Under the pieces are notes generated by a model, which was given only the letters and a program-made list of their open reading frames with translations, was not told where the DNA came from and did not search any database. DNA of 20,825 bases, taken from IMG/VR virus record IMGVR_UViG_3300035670_001434, positions 1 through 20,825 of that record. One strand, written 5' to 3'. The stretch comes from a virus. The translations under genes were made by a program, and so were the position numbers. The stretch's first letter is position 1, and each line of letters begins with the position of its first letter. This document shows, in pieces, positions 1,647-12,949 of this stretch.

Positions 1647-1825
1647 TGTTCCCACCCCTGAGTGAGCAGCGCTGCTCCAGCTGCCGGTATTTCTTCCCCG
1701 ATCAGCACGACCTAGGCCAGTGCCGCCGCAACCCGCCGCAGATCGGCCCGCGTGGTGAGCAGTGGCCCACCGTCGCCGCGGATGACTGGTGCGGGGAGTG
1801 GGTGACGAGGGAGGGGGAGCAGTGA
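1646..1825 (+). CDS. 59-residue four-cysteine protein (probable zinc or metal knuckle)
   Basis: The start overlaps the previous stop (ATGA). Cysteines at 10, 13, 26 and 49 form C-x2-C-x12-C-x22-C, with aromatic and proline positions around them ('CRYFFPD', 'CRRNPPQ', 'WCGEW'). This layout recurs in small phage and bacterial proteins and probably binds zinc; a redox metal is not excluded. The minus-strand gene at 8982-9281 carries a comparable module behind an HTH. The stop lies within GTGAAAATG at the border of the AT-rich Ibr-like block, so this is the last gene before the composition changes. Confidence 0.65.
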   Translation: MFPPLSEQRCSSCRYFFPDQHDLGQCRRNPPQIGPRGEQWPTVAADDWCGEWVTREGEQ

Positions 1826-1827
1826 AA

Positions 1828-3210
1828 ATGCTCAAAGACAGCGCAAGCCCACTTGAAACCGCGCCATCTGCCACCACAACGCCAATCACCATGAATACAA
1901 GCCGGTCAAGTCTCTCGATTGATGTCTACACAGCAACGCAAGAGCGCTTAGATTTTATTTTCGCAAACTTCAGCCGGGTATACGTTTCGTTTTCTGGCGG
2001 GAAGGATAGCGGCGTGCTCTTAAACCTTGTTATTGATTACGTCAGAGCGCATGGGATTAAAACAAGGGTAGGTGTTCAAATAATGGACAATGAGGCGAAC
2101 TACACCCAGAGCGAAGAGTTTATGCACCGCATCATCCAGGCCAATCTAGATGTCCTGGACGTTTACTGGTGCTGCCTGCCTATTACCTTGCCCTGCACAG
2201 TTTCCTCTTACGAGATTGACTGGCAGTGCTGGGGCGAAGCTGATCGCCACCGCTGGATCAGGCCAATGCCAGCCCAAAGCTACATAGTAAATCTTGCCAA
2301 CCACCCATTTGGAGAGTTGTTTGCGGAAAACATGGACTACGCTTCATTCTGGGACATGTTTGCAGAGTGGTACAGCAAGGGAGAATCTTGCGCAAACCTT
2401 ATCGGGATTCGGACTGTTGAGTCCCTAAACAGGTTTCGCGCAATTCTGAATCAGCAGAAAGAGACAATGCAGGGTCGGATGTGGACAAAGAAAAACACGG
2501 ATCACACTTACAATTGCTATCCGATTTACGACTGGCGTACCGAAGATATTTGGACGGCAAACGCGAAGTTCGGATGGGACTACAACAAGCTTTATGACAT
2601 CTTCTATATGGCTGGCATCCCCATTAAGAAGATGCGAGTCGCTTCCCCTTTTATGTCAGAGTCCAAATCAAGTCTTGCAATGTATCGAGTTATTGACCCG
2701 GTTATCTGGGCCAGGCTGTGCGCAAGGGTTGGTGGCGCCAACTTTATGGCAACGTATGGCAAGCAATTGGACTACAAATCTTTTCGCTTACCCGCTGGCC
2801 ATACGTGGAAATCGTTTGTCAAGTTTCTCCTGGCGACCCTTCCGGAGCAGTCAAGCGTAAATTTTAAGCAGCGCTTCATTCAGTCCATCCGTTACTGGGG
2901 GCGAGTGGGGCGCGGCCTGCCTGAATACATCATTGAAGAATTGCAGCGTATTGGTATCCGGCACAGAATTAACGGCACCACAAAGCATGGAGGCAATAAT
3001 CTTCGCCGAGTAATCATCAAGGTTCCACCGGACCACCTAGATGAACTGCCGTGCCACAACAGCATGGTCACGTCTTGGAAGCGATTTGCGGTAACAATTC
3101 TAAAGAATGATCACACCTGCAAATACCTGGGCCTTGCGCCAACACAAGAGCAGCAGCGCCGACAAAAGTCCATTCAGTCTAAGTACACCAACGCATTTAC
3201 CGTCAAATGA
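1828..3210 (+). CDS. ibrA: IbrA/YbdN-like PAPS-reductase-family protein (DUF3440 type)
   Basis: The 460-residue protein has the PP-loop ATP-pyrophosphatase motif SGGKDS at residues 56-61, within 'VYVSFSGGKDSGVLLNLV'. Further segments match the E. coli YbdN/IbrA family: 'EWYSKGESCANLIGIRTVES', 'YPIYDWRTEDIWT', 'YDIFYMAGIPIKKMRVASPF' and a C-terminal 'SWKRFAVTILKNDHTCKYLG' module. PAPS-reductase-fold proteins bind ATP or PAPS-like nucleotides and often activate or transfer sulfur; the true IbrA reaction is unknown. In E. coli prophage-type loci, IbrA with IbrB (ParB-like) controls immunoglobulin-binding protein genes. ATG 1828 was chosen because GAGGGGGAG lies 8 bp upstream; GTG 1822 (overlapping the previous stop) and ATG 1891 are alternatives. 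The following ParB-type gene overlaps by 4 bp. Confidence 0.88.
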   Translation: MLKDSASPLETAPSATTTPITMNTSRSSLSIDVYTATQERLDFIFANFSRVYVSFSGGKDSGVLLNLVIDYVRAHGIKTRVGVQIMDNEANYTQSEEFMHRIIQANLDVLDVYWCCLPITLPCTVSSYEIDWQCWGEADRHRWIRPMPAQSYIVNLANHPFGELFAENMDYASFWDMFAEWYSKGESCANLIGIRTVESLNRFRAILNQQKETMQGRMWTKKNTDHTYNCYPIYDWRTEDIWTANAKFGWDYNKLYDIFYMAGIPIKKMRVASPFMSESKSSLAMYRVIDPVIWARLCARVGGANFMATYGKQLDYKSFRLPAGHTWKSFVKFLLATLPEQSSVNFKQRFIQSIRYWGRVGRGLPEYIIEELQRIGIRHRINGTTKHGGNNLRRVIIKVPPDHLDELPCHNSMVTSWKRFAVTILKNDHTCKYLGLAPTQEQQRRQKSIQSKYTNAFTVK

Positions 3211-4148
3211 AAGTTTTTAACCTCTCCGAGCTCCAGCCTGAGCGAATCGTCAAGTGCCCCAAAGGTGGTTTTACTTCTCATCGGTTGATCACTGAGAGCG
3301 ATGGCATGGGTTACAGCATGACCAAGACCATTGTTCACGCTGGCAAGGCGCACCGCTGGCACTATCAACATCACCTGGAAAGCTGTTATTGCGTCAGCGG
3401 CAAAGGCCTGCTGATTAACGAGCGAACAAAGGAGCTACACGCGATCGGCCCCGATTGTACATACGTGTTAGACCAGCACGATCCGCACGTTTTTGAGGCG
3501 CTAGAGGAAACGATACTCATTTGTGTATTCAACCCACCGCTAGTTGGAGACGAACTGCACGACGATAACGATTCGTACCCTTGGCGCTCTCCCGTCTACT
3601 CAGTCCGCAGTGTGCCAATTGAAAAGGTAACGGCCAATGACTACAACCCAAACAGCGTCGCCCCGCCAGAGATGGAGCTGTTAGAAACATCAATTTGGGA
3701 AGATGGCTACACCCAGCCCGTGGTTGTTGTTCGCGATGAGGAGCGGGACACGTATGTAGTCGTTGACGGCTTTCACAGGTTTTTAACGCTGAAAAACAGC
3801 GCCCGGATACGTGAGCGAGAGGGCGGCAGACTGCCAGTCGTGATCTTGCGAAAGGAACTACATGAGCGGATGGCTTCCACGATTCGGCACAATAGGGCCA
3901 GAGGGTCTCACAATATTGAGCTGATGAGCGTCATCGTTGCCGAGCTAATTGAGATGGGCAAGGGTGATGCGTGGATTTGCAAGCACATCGGCATGAGCCC
4001 GGATGAGTTGCTTAGGCTGAAACAGGTGACTGGCCTTGCTTCGCTGTTTCTGGGCAAGGAGTTCAGCAAGGCGTGGGACGTAGAGCAAATTGACCAAGTT
4101 TCGGAGATCTTAGACGATGAAGCTGGCGAGAGTATGGAGGCCAATTGA
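3207..4148 (+). CDS. Fusion of ectoine-synthase-like cupin and IbrB/ParB-like domain
   Basis: This 313-residue protein has two domains. Residues 1-125 resemble L-ectoine synthase (EctC) along their whole length: 'RWHYQHHLESCYCVSGKG', 'CTYVLDQHDPHVFEA', 'CVFNPPLVGDELHDD'. Glu58, Tyr86 and His94 fall where EctC metal ligands are expected, and Glu116/His118 match the EctC 'G-x-E-x-H' active-site signature. Residues 132-300 resemble IbrB/YbdM of the ParB/sulfiredoxin superfamily: 'SVPIEKVTANDYNPN', 'VVDGFHR' at 186-191, 'IRHNRARGSHN' at 226-236, then an HTH-like stretch around 250-275. The start overlaps ibrA by ATGA, so the pair is coupled. No other ectoine gene and no ParA is present, so neither ectoine synthesis nor partitioning is likely. 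The reaction is unknown. Confidence 0.85.
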   Translation: MKVFNLSELQPERIVKCPKGGFTSHRLITESDGMGYSMTKTIVHAGKAHRWHYQHHLESCYCVSGKGLLINERTKELHAIGPDCTYVLDQHDPHVFEALEETILICVFNPPLVGDELHDDNDSYPWRSPVYSVRSVPIEKVTANDYNPNSVAPPEMELLETSIWEDGYTQPVVVVRDEERDTYVVVDGFHRFLTLKNSARIREREGGRLPVVILRKELHERMASTIRHNRARGSHNIELMSVIVAELIEMGKGDAWICKHIGMSPDELLRLKQVTGLASLFLGKEFSKAWDVEQIDQVSEILDDEAGESMEAN

Positions 4149-4530
4149 CTCATGGGAGGAGATCGCTTTCAACATGTGGGGAGATGTTCCCGACCGTGCA
4201 AAATTCTTGAGAAAAGCTGTTTTGTTTACGGGAAACCATCGCCTATACGGCCGCTACATGAACAGAGTGACCGTCGAATGGCCCAACAGCTGCCTCAATG
4301 CTTTGACGGATTACAATCTAAACAGGCGAGCATGGATTGGGCATGCAGCTTGCGCTCTAGCGTTGCGCTGCCCGGAGGACGTTACCAGGGAAGCATGGGG
4401 GAAGTTAAGTCATGAGCAAAGGGTATTGGCGAACAGGCAAGCCGATAGAGCAATTCAATCCTGGGAATTGCGCTACAGAAAGAGTGTCGGAATACGTCCA
4501 AGCATGGAAGCGCCGCTGCTATTCGGTTGA
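4117..4530 (+). CDS. Conserved small companion of IbrA/IbrB loci, unknown function
   Basis: The 137-residue protein has 'SWEEIAFNMWGDVPDR', 'YGRYMNRVTVEWPNSCLNAL', 'NLNRRAWIGHAACALALRCP' and 'ANRQADRAIQSWE'. I recognise this pattern from small phage proteins, often near PAPS-reductase-type genes, but know no established function. It is helical, with invariant-looking Trp, Arg and Asn positions. The start at 4117 overlaps the cupin-ParB gene by 32 bp and has GGAG about 10 bp upstream; ATG 4174 would avoid the overlap but would remove the conserved 'SWEEI' segment. The 3' end overlaps the next gene by 119 bp, unusually long here. Confidence 0.75.
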   Translation: MKLARVWRPIDSWEEIAFNMWGDVPDRAKFLRKAVLFTGNHRLYGRYMNRVTVEWPNSCLNALTDYNLNRRAWIGHAACALALRCPEDVTREAWGKLSHEQRVLANRQADRAIQSWELRYRKSVGIRPSMEAPLLFG

Positions 4531-4744
4531 CATTCCAGACGAAGTGCCGCGCAAGGTTCAATCTAGCGGTCGGGCACCCTCCTGGAAGGCAATTGCAATT
4601 GCTATCCTGCAGAATGATCTGCAATTGCGTCAACTTGGCTTTTCACCGATTAACTGGGAAAAGCAAAAGGCAATTGCAGCTAAAGCACATTTTGCCTTTA
4701 ACGGCTATCATGGCGACGGACACCAGCTAGAGCTTTTTCAATGA
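4412..4744 (+). CDS. Free-standing paralogue of the IbrA C-terminal module
   Basis: This 110-residue protein has 'YVQAWKRRCYSVDIPDEVP' followed by 'SWKAIAIAILQNDLQLRQLG' and 'KQKAIAAKAHFAF'. The second part aligns with the IbrA-like C-terminus encoded at about 3074-3200 ('SWKRFAVTILKNDHTCKYLG'): SWK, then I-L-x-N-D, then L-G at matching spacing. It therefore looks like a detached C-terminal helical module of the DUF3440/YbdN family without the PP-loop. GGGGGAAG about 8 bp upstream supports ATG 4412; GTG 4484 is an alternative that would shorten the 119-bp overlap. It may be a partner or decoy subunit for IbrA. That role is inference. Confidence 0.7.
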   Translation: MSKGYWRTGKPIEQFNPGNCATERVSEYVQAWKRRCYSVDIPDEVPRKVQSSGRAPSWKAIAIAILQNDLQLRQLGFSPINWEKQKAIAAKAHFAFNGYHGDGHQLELFQ

Positions 4745-4935
4745 ACACCACTCACGCCGACGTGTTATCAAGCCTTGCTTCCTGGAACCTTCAGGGAATT
4801 GTTGAATGCAAGGAAGTCAAGGGTAGGACCGAATTGACTTACAAGGGTGAAGTTCAGTCTTTCCCGCACTGGCTTGCGCTTCGCCGCGTTAATCAAATTG
4901 GCGCCAATCATGTTTGCGAGCCGGACAATTTATGA
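4741..4935 (+). CDS. 64-residue protein in the Ibr-like block, unknown function
   Basis: The gene is framed by ATGA overlaps on both sides (4741 and 4932), good evidence that it is translated. The protein begins 'MNTTHADVLSSLASWNLQGI' and contains 'YKGEVQSFPHWLALRRVNQ', mixed helix and strand, with two cysteines (residues 23 and 59) far apart. It has no membrane segment or signal peptide. I do not recognise the family. Its position between the IbrA-C-like gene and the Cas4-like nuclease suggests a structural or adaptor role in the same system. Confidence 0.65.
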   Translation: MNTTHADVLSSLASWNLQGIVECKEVKGRTELTYKGEVQSFPHWLALRRVNQIGANHVCEPDNL

Positions 4936-5588
4936 CTATCGACACCACTAGCAATTTGCTTAAGAGTCGCGGCACTCCAACTGTTTGGGTAACGTGGATG
5001 GCAAAGGCGCTGTCGGACCCAGCCCAGTGCAGGCTGCCTGCCTGGACGCTTACCCGATTCAGTATCACAACAGATGACAGCTACAGCGGGGACTGGGCCG
5101 TGAAACACGCTGTGATTATCGGGAAAGTGCAGCAGCGGCTGGTAGCGGCCGGCCGAATTTCGGAAGTGGAAAAAGATGTGACTTTAATCAGTCGCACGGG
5201 TTTGCCCATTACTGGATCAATTGACGTTTGGGCGCCACAAGTTGATGGCAGCGCGGCAGTTGCGATCGACGCCAAAACCGGCAAGCACAACCCAGCGCAC
5301 CGCTTACAGGTCAATCTGTATCAGCTGATTACCAAGGCGACCGGGGAAGCCGTGATTCCGCCAAAGGGGATGCTCTCCTACCGAGATCGGGACGTTTGGA
5401 TTGATCCAGCGGAGGCGTCTGCCGAGCTCATCTCCCAGGTTGCTGAACTGATGGAGGTGATTGCCGCAGATCGCCCGCCAGCTGCAGCGCCAAGCAAGTC
5501 GAATTGCCGGTTCTGCAGCCTCAAGGGAATCTGTACTGCAGCGTGGCATGGGGACGCTCAGGCGGCGCCTATTACTGATCTTTTCTGA
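4932..5588 (+). CDS. Cas4/RecB-like PD-(D/E)XK nuclease with Fe-S-type cysteines
   Basis: The 218-residue protein contains motif II 'GSIDVW' (Asp98), motif III 'AIDAKTGK' (Asp113-x-Lys115) and motif IV 'HRLQVNLYQ' (Gln126, Tyr130), the catalytic core of RecB-family PD-(D/E)XK nucleases. Cysteines 33, 192, 195 and 201 give one distal N-terminal Cys plus C-x2-C-x5-C at the C-terminus, the arrangement that holds a 4Fe-4S cluster in Cas4 and AddB. No helicase domain is present, so it probably acts as an exonuclease, perhaps with the recombinase and SSB encoded at the left of the window or with the Ibr-like proteins. The start overlaps the previous stop (ATGA); TTG 4914 in the same frame is less likely. 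Confidence 0.85.
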   Translation: MTIDTTSNLLKSRGTPTVWVTWMAKALSDPAQCRLPAWTLTRFSITTDDSYSGDWAVKHAVIIGKVQQRLVAAGRISEVEKDVTLISRTGLPITGSIDVWAPQVDGSAAVAIDAKTGKHNPAHRLQVNLYQLITKATGEAVIPPKGMLSYRDRDVWIDPAEASAELISQVAELMEVIAADRPPAAAPSKSNCRFCSLKGICTAAWHGDAQAAPITDLF

Positions 5589-11989: not shown

Positions 11990-12949
11990 GTGCCCGCCAG
12001 CTCTAGCCAGTCCTGGTGGCTCGACTCGATCGGTCGGATCCCCCTGCTCACGCCAGCCGAAGAGATCGAGCTGGGCACGGCGATTCAGCGGTGGCAGACC
12101 CATCCCGACCCGTGCCCGCCAGGGATCAGGCGCCGCGGCCAGCGGGCTCGGGACCGGTTCGTGAGTGCGAACCTGCGGCTGGTGGTGGCGTACATCTCCC
12201 GCCGCTGCCACCGGCTGGCCAAGGCCCACGACCGGGAGGATCTGATCCAGGCAGGGAACCTGGGCCTGATCACGGCAGCGGAGCGGTTCGACCCCAGCAA
12301 GGGGTACCGGTTCAGCACTTATGCGTATTGGTGGATCCGGCAGGCGATCAACCGCTGGGTTGATCAGCACGGCCGGGCCATTGCGATTCCCGGCAGCCAC
12401 TGCCAGCACCTGAGCAGGCTGGAGGCCGTGACCCAGCGACTGGAGCGGGAGCTGAACCGCAGCCCCACGCAGGCGGAGATCGCCGCTGAGCTGGGCGTGT
12501 CGCTCAGGGTGTTTGAGCAGGTGCTTGAGAACGGCAGGGGGATCGCCAGCCTTGACCAGGTCGTGACCGATGACGGACTGGAGCTGGGGTCGCTGTGCGC
12601 CACCTGGGACCGCAGCCCTGAGGATGAGGAAGAACAGCGGGAACGGTGGCGCCAGGCGGAGGAACTGCGGAACCTGATCGCCCGGCTGGCGCCGCAGGAT
12701 CGGCGGCTGCTGTCGCTGGCCTGGGGCCTCGATGGGGTGGAGGTGCCCAGGCCGGAGCTGGCCCAGCAGGAAGGGCTCAGCACCCGGGCGCTGGAGGTGC
12801 GGCTGAACGGATTACAGGCGGCGCTCGCGTCGCAGTCCGTCCAGCTGGTGTTGGTGGCGGTGCAGAGGGTGATTCCATCACCACGGATCCGGCAGCGGCG
12901 CAGACGGCGAGAGCTAGGCGTGGTGCAGCTCAGGTTGCAGGTGGCGTGA
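11990..12949 (+). CDS. Phage-encoded sigma-70-family factor
   Basis: The 319-residue protein has region 1.2-like 'WLDSIGRIPLLTPAEEIELG' (10-29), region 2 with 'NLRLVVAYIS' (61-70), 'DLIQAGNLGL' (84-93) and 'RFSTYAYWWIRQAI' (107-120), region 3 'RLEAVTQRLERELNRSPTQA' (143-162) and region 4 at about 233-285. 'GRIPLLTPAEEIELG' strongly resembles cyanobacterial group 2/3 sigmas. About 14 residues (38-51) expand the 1.2-2.1 junction, and the last 35 residues are unusual and Arg-rich. It would direct host RNA polymerase to particular promoters, perhaps phage late genes. GTG 11990 fits the alignment. It stands alone on the plus strand. Confidence 0.9.
   Translation: MPASSSQSWWLDSIGRIPLLTPAEEIELGTAIQRWQTHPDPCPPGIRRRGQRARDRFVSANLRLVVAYISRRCHRLAKAHDREDLIQAGNLGLITAAERFDPSKGYRFSTYAYWWIRQAINRWVDQHGRAIAIPGSHCQHLSRLEAVTQRLERELNRSPTQAEIAAELGVSLRVFEQVLENGRGIASLDQVVTDDGLELGSLCATWDRSPEDEEEQRERWRQAEELRNLIARLAPQDRRLLSLAWGLDGVEVPRPELAQQEGLSTRALEVRLNGLQAALASQSVQLVLVAVQRVIPSPRIRQRRRRRELGVVQLRLQVA

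Follow-up and report, generated by a model that had tools for sequence, protein, structure and literature searches.

An EctC-type cupin fused to IbrB belongs to a conserved phage operon and may be its tailoring enzyme

The cassette and its surroundings

The window analysed here is the whole of a 20,825-base virus record, IMGVR_UViG_3300035670_001434, and on its + strand lies a cassette in which a gene for an EctC-IbrB fusion protein stands between ibrA and two small open reading frames, ORF137 and ORF110. The features of the window on which the analysis draws are the following:

1789..3210, + strand: ibrA, a PP-loop ATP-pyrophosphatase (PAPS-reductase-like) with DUF3440 (PF11922 6.8e-54, PF01507 5.8e-9, phrog_2302 1.9e-110)
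3207..4148, + strand: ectC-ibrB fusion gene, 313 aa, ATG to TGA
3207..3584, + strand: EctC-type iron-cupin domain, residues 1-126 (PF06339, NF009806, match to 5bxx, AlphaFold superposition)
3585..4145, + strand: IbrB / ParB-Srx-fold domain, residues 127-313 (phrog_2159, alignment to Salmonella IbrB)
4117..4530, + strand: ORF137, all-helical protein whose start overlaps the end of ectC-ibrB; a conserved IbrAB partner in phages
4412..4744, + strand: ORF110, stand-alone C-terminal part of DUF3440 (PF11922 positions 123-181, 1.1e-5)
4914-5588: PD-(D/E)XK / Cas4-like nuclease gene, directly 3' of the cassette
11990-12949: phage-encoded RpoD-like sigma factor, 77% protein identity to that of Synechococcus phage S-LBS1

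The ibrA frame opens at a GTG (1789), although its relatives make the ATG at 1891 the likelier start, and its stop overlaps the start of ectC-ibrB (ATGA). ORF110 begins inside ORF137, about 119 bases being read in two frames (window 4412-4530), and its initiating Met is conserved at the same place across relatives. An earlier note on this DNA had picked out the fusion gene but passed over ibrA (~1891-3210), ORF137 (4117-4530) and ORF110 (4412-4744).

Because the annealing-protein gene (83% identity to its S-LBS1 counterpart) and the sigma factor both resemble those of S-LBS1, the window is taken as a cyanophage fragment, and the host of this phage is probably a freshwater Synechococcus. An integrase-like protein is also encoded in the window, as detected by PHROG profile search. 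A PD-(D/E)XK / Cas4-like nuclease is found near the cassette in two other loci as well (L056 and L062).

The EctC-IbrB fusion protein

The N-terminal part of the fusion protein is an EctC-type cupin over its full length, as had been claimed for residues 1-125. The Pfam Ectoine_synth profile PF06339 aligns with residues 1-126 from position 1 to 125 of its 127 (E 4.7e-37, 127.5 bits, cut-off 27), the NCBIfam ectoine synthase model NF009806 is passed (134.5 vs a cut-off of 128) and PDB entry 5bxx is matched at 4.1e-25. The cupin part of the AlphaFold model is well predicted, and its superposition on EctC 5bxx_A gives Z 17.6 and 1.8 A rmsd over 117 residues, against Z 13.7 for the best non-EctC cupin. 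Identity to 5BXX is 38%, and the likeness to the known enzymes (P. lautus 5ONM, S. alaskensis 5BXX) takes in all three metal ligands and almost every residue that contacts the substrate. In P. lautus EctC the iron is held by Glu57, Tyr84 and His92 (PMC6344544), which by alignment are E58, Y86 and H94 of the window cupin, while Glu116 and His118 align with the conserved C-terminal Glu and His of that enzyme; the five residues that the earlier note had placed at EctC metal and active-site positions thus keep their assignment. The active-site residues of the window cupin are S24, R26, T41, Y53, C106, F108, E116 and H118, and Ser23, Arg25, Thr40, Tyr52, Cys104 and Phe106 of P. lautus EctC are all retained. 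In P. lautus numbering, S23, R25, T40, Y52, E57, Y84, E114 and H116 are present in 126/126 phage EctC domains and H92 in 125/126, and position 38 is mostly Thr or His. This intact metal and catalytic site supports the suggestion that the cupin would bind or convert a small ligand, and the domain is probably an active enzyme.

The exception is Trp21, which positions the substrate and is conserved in all EctC of ect clusters (PMC6344544). It is replaced by F22 in the window cupin and found in none of the 126 phage domains, where the position is taken by F (73), a gap (51) or M (2). Trp occupies it in 30 of 53 cellular EctC, a sample in which orphans and tandem copies are included along with three copies from the cassette, and because this sample is mixed at the position, the loss of Trp is telling only in comparison with the ect-cluster enzymes. 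Since Trp is never present in the phage domains and the W21A change leaves P. lautus EctC with 9.7% of its activity (PMC6344544), the EctC reaction is not to be presumed for the phage cupin.

Phage cupins have diverged to 44-81% identity and are under purifying selection, with a dN/dS of ~0.03-0.14 in comparisons with unsaturated synonymous sites. In a quick tree built on few columns, 77/77 sampled phage EctC split from 43 cellular EctC with a branch support of 99; fused and separate forms are interleaved within the phage side, where the clade is supported and the finer order is not. In these respects the phage form differs from known EctC: it lacks Trp21, comes without ectA and ectB, is fused or linked to IbrB and makes up a separate clade.

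The remainder of the protein is IbrB-like, as the earlier note also had it. The IbrB/ParB-like profile phrog_2159 matches residues 75-305 at 1.2e-76, and the C-terminal part scores 24.8 with PF02195, slightly short of the cut-off of 26.3. The domain shares 46% identity with the IbrB of a Salmonella plasmid across the aligned domain, in an alignment that runs through the DGFHR/DGYHR and TIRHNRARG motifs, and DGFHR and TIRHNRARGxH are invariant in the IbrB domain. AlphaFold modelled the ParB half poorly (block pLDDT 32-63). We also considered a partition ParB and rejected it, given that a Pfam search of the fusion protein gave no HTH_ParB match and that the neighbours tested are IbrA, ORF137 and ORF110, not ParA.

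A modular phage operon

Scanning viral contigs gave 227 matching relatives, and 80 of these were kept for examination. Wherever these 80 contigs are long enough, they show the order IbrA, EctC-IbrB, ORF137, ORF110 with hardly an exception, and close relatives nearly all have IbrA upstream of the fusion gene. The fusion is also present in the isolate genomes of Mycobacterium phages Gaia and Nebkiss, at 66% identity to the window protein, and Pseudoalteromonas phage XCL1123 has the same cassette with EctC and IbrB split into two genes. Gaia and XCL1123 share IbrA, ORF137 and ORF110 with the window, although Gaia has an additional gene ahead of ORF137 (GIY-YIG-like by the Nebkiss annotation). Among 348 distinct IbrB loci, EctC was found in 127, as a fusion in one open frame in 69 and as a separate gene in 58, a share that is inflated because several of the queries were EctC or ORF137 proteins. 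The search for further proteins with an EctC cupin and a ParB domain has therefore been productive, and the 69 distinct fused loci, together with the Gaia and Nebkiss genomes, dispose of an assembly error or a one-off fusion. Three further loci with the fused or split form came from bacterial genome bins (Acidobacteria, Planctomycetota, Saprospiraceae) and are perhaps prophages or contaminating viral contigs. Together, IbrA, IbrB, ORF137, ORF110 and EctC make up an operon of four to five genes that is conserved in phages.

The gene set can be rearranged. In one locus the order is IbrB-ORF137-ORF110-IbrA-EctC (L271) and in another IbrA-EctC-ORF137-ORF110-IbrB (L280). ORF137 is present alongside EctC in nearly all loci, and ORF137 and ORF110 follow EctC-IbrB in ~85 loci; both are absent from ordinary, EctC-less bacterial IbrAB loci. 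When only loci obtained with IbrB-type queries are counted, ORF137 occurs in 12/15 with EctC vs 49/179 without it (Fisher p 8e-5). The AF2 model of ORF137 is a confident helical fold (pLDDT 92), which had no convincing match in the PDB with Foldseek and none of Z 5 or higher with VIA-align, and the sequence gave no Pfam, PHROG or NCBIfam match. Its sole good match in BFVD, A0A649V0K8, is clearly a relative (59% identity).

The SGGKDS motif of the IbrA PP-loop is invariant, whereas Cys109 and Cys292 are nearly fixed in IbrA of EctC operons and rare in other IbrA, and Asn82 and Asn85 are likewise carried in EctC operons and rare elsewhere. Because IbrA of EctC operons carries residues of its own, IbrA and EctC may share a pathway, although membership of a common clade would look alike. 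ORF137 is also seen with EctC-less IbrAB, and there IbrA often retains the C-terminal DUF3440 'GIPD' stretch; in EctC loci this stretch is usually missing from IbrA and is carried instead by ORF110, whose motifs read GIPDE..RAPSxK..ILxND..LGF. With the stretch in ORF110 instead of IbrA, ORF110 seems to be a part of IbrA that has become detached. Compared with the E. coli pair (ibrAB, ybdN/ybdM; DUF3440 plus ParB-like), the phage cassette has the same adjacent IbrA and IbrB homologues but adds EctC, ORF137 and ORF110, and its IbrA differs by the Cys/Asn signature and, usually, by the lack of the GIPD stretch.

Other enzymes sit in EctC-less IbrAB operons, among them a GNAT gene (PF00583 or PF13673). 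A small gene of one family lies between ibrA and ibrB in L117 (Desulfosporosinus), L122 (a deltaproteobacterium) and L140-L165 (Clostridia); the first two exceed the Pfam GNAT cut-off, and the clostridial members can be aligned with these two but have diverged too far for the profile to score them. In six phage loci (L311, L313, L314, L357-L359) a GNAT lies between ORF137 and ibrA. EctC is found in 127 of the 348 loci, GNAT in 44 and both in 0 (p 4e-10), an exclusion that is confounded by descent because most GNAT loci are clostridial; inside loci with ORF137 it gives p 0.002. Substitution of GNAT for EctC in sister operons is thus suggestive. Two loci carry still other domains:

L258:5893-7428: three-domain protein of EctC, a SAM-methyltransferase-like part (FtsJ/Methyltransf_31; E ~0.003, below cut-off) and IbrB
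L345:3871-4614: 1-Cys peroxiredoxin (PF00578 2.6e-24) between an EctC-type ibrA and ibrB

The second of these has an EctC-type IbrA, ORF137 and ORF110, and EctC was not found in it. Taken as a whole, EctC is an interchangeable part of the phage IbrAB operon. The commonest neighbour of EctC-less IbrAB is an SNF2-type helicase (76 loci, 3 with EctC; for instance L385:1807-3087).

The fusion itself had been noticed before. The earlier note knew of no described system containing it, which holds in so far as we found no paper on the system in the literature on IbrAB, DUF3440 and EctC in phages, a prediction in a 2013 survey of phage base modification being possible, and EctC goes unmentioned in the main text of a 2025 survey of ParB-CTPase fusions; however, GenBank KJ567043 and MN313256 already annotate an 'ectoine synthase/ParB multidomain protein'. 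What is new here is the membership of EctC in a conserved IbrAB operon and the logic of a tailoring enzyme.

Possible function of the EctC domain

What might an ectoine synthase-like cupin do in such an operon? Our main reading, to which we give a probability of roughly 0.42, is that EctC would be a working iron cupin with a tailoring role in a phage modification pathway of IbrA and IbrB, the target of which is probably DNA, a nucleotide or RNA. That EctC belongs to the same pathway as IbrA and IbrB is the firmest part of this reading, and we consider it very probable. PP-loop enzymes such as TilS and QueC activate carbonyl groups with ATP. In the proposed order, IbrA, the PP-loop ATP pyrophosphatase, would use ATP to activate a substrate; the target would be presented or prepared by IbrB with its NTP-binding ParB/Srx fold, by ORF137 and by ORF110, the DUF3440 module; and EctC would act last, finishing an installed side group by closing or opening an amide/amine <-> cyclic amidine, a step for which sister operons may use a GNAT acetyltransferase instead. 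The modified molecule would probably be the phage's own DNA (or a nucleotide or RNA), and the purpose would be protection of the phage during infection. EctC closes N-gamma-acetyl-diaminobutyrate with loss of water and can also use glutamine (PMC5924519). A more specific version, in which IbrA, IbrB, ORF137 and ORF110 add an amine or amide group to a nucleobase, EctC cyclises it to an ectoine-like amidine and GNAT acetylates it in sister operons, so that the phages would make a hypermodified base new to science, seems to us unlikely in such detail. Two further observations go against the main reading: plain IbrAB is found on bacterial chromosomes with no known modification role, and the peroxiredoxin locus L345 has an EctC-type IbrA without EctC.

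DNA comes first among the targets, if only tentatively, because of where the cassette is found. It is absent from S-LBS1, in which an N6/N4 DNA methylase is encoded, together with an SNF2-type helicase, upstream of an SF2 helicase; L002, L007 and L036 have the cassette at exactly this place. In several loci, L002, L003 and L007 among them, the cassette comes after a prim-pol gene and before an SF2 helicase orthologous to S-LBS1 A47. A PF01555 methylase is present in 0/15 EctC-cassette records (13 contigs, Gaia and XCL1123) and S-LBS1 has one, a comparison that involves a single reference phage and one phage group whose cassette-bearing members are not independent. The window's own cassette is placed elsewhere, downstream of ssb. 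The same operon logic would serve if tRNA or another RNA, of host or phage, or a free nucleotide or cofactor in an anti-defence role were modified, with EctC again finishing the product, and the PP-loop tRNA modifiers TilS and TtcA do match IbrA weakly; since the cassette is found within replication modules and, for one phage group, at the site of the S-LBS1 DNA methylase, we regard such a target as rather doubtful. Known DNA modification systems offer partial parallels. Dnd phosphorothioation also combines a PP-loop enzyme (DndC) with a ParB-superfamily protein (DndB) (PMC10853773), but IbrA scores 22.7 with DndC vs a cut-off of 290.4 and EctC has no counterpart in Dnd. In outline, the CmoX/CmoY pathway to 5-carboxymethylcytosine-glycine amide is similar in that a base is modified and a further enzyme then finishes it, and ParBc proteins occur near cmoX (PMC12783734); however, no CmoA, CmoX or CmoY homologue was identified in the phage cassette. 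For IbrA, PADLOC returned only weak DndC/BrxP matches, and its output for the other cassette proteins was of no use; a known defence family was rejected on this ground.

The earlier note had proposed that the cupin gates the ParB-like domain. A sensor of this kind, binding an ectoine-like or amino-acid ligand and gating NTP binding in cis, would fit the 69 loci in which both domains share one chain, and proteins of the ParB-CTPase fold, which often have additional domains fused to it, bind a variety of NTPs (PMC12704722). Yet EctC is a gene of its own in 58/127 loci, does not always stand next to ibrB (L271, L280), retains a full catalytic set for which sensing has no need, and is found replaced by GNAT. 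Because EctC is separable, can lie away from ibrB and has GNAT in its stead, an enzyme sharing the pathway is preferred to a tethered sensor, which we hold to be improbable. Nor do we expect much of a purely metabolic role, in which the phage would make ectoine, or else ADPC, a cyclic solute derived from glutamine, as an osmoprotectant: the PF06339 and NF009806 cut-offs are passed and EctC converts glutamine to ADPC with low efficiency (PMC5924519), but EctA and EctB (TIGR02406, TIGR02407) occur in 0/12 cassette-bearing phage records, including the complete Gaia and XCL1123, Trp21 of the ect-cluster enzymes is never present, ectC is tied to IbrA, IbrB, ORF137 and ORF110, and the phage proteins form a single clade outside the cellular sample. 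Ectoine itself is unlikely given the lack of EctA/EctB and of Trp21, and the osmolyte role in general we judge to be highly improbable. Regulation of genes is the sense of the original name of IbrA and IbrB. The name 'co-activator of prophage gene expression' is given to IbrB homologues in several records, and E. coli YbdM is a predicted transcription factor (PMC9068703), so that the cupin might be an accessory to transcriptional or prophage control; the invariant SGGKDS of IbrA and its pairing with GNAT or EctC suggest chemistry instead, a Pfam search found no HTH domain in the window protein, and regulation appears to us quite improbable.

If EctC is a tailoring enzyme of this pathway, IbrAB would be a widespread modular system of nucleic-acid modification with exchangeable finishing enzymes, and the known reaction of EctC, which yields a cyclic amidine, together with GNAT elsewhere, would be a concrete clue to the product of IbrA and IbrB, for whose chemistry we found no paper. 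Should that product be a modified base, a large set of phage genes that now lack an explanation would turn out to be a modular DNA-modification system. Phages, plasmids and bacterial chromosomes commonly encode IbrA and IbrB homologues, and both proteins also have homologues in an Asgard archaeal genome bin (L141, Candidatus Heimdallarchaeota).
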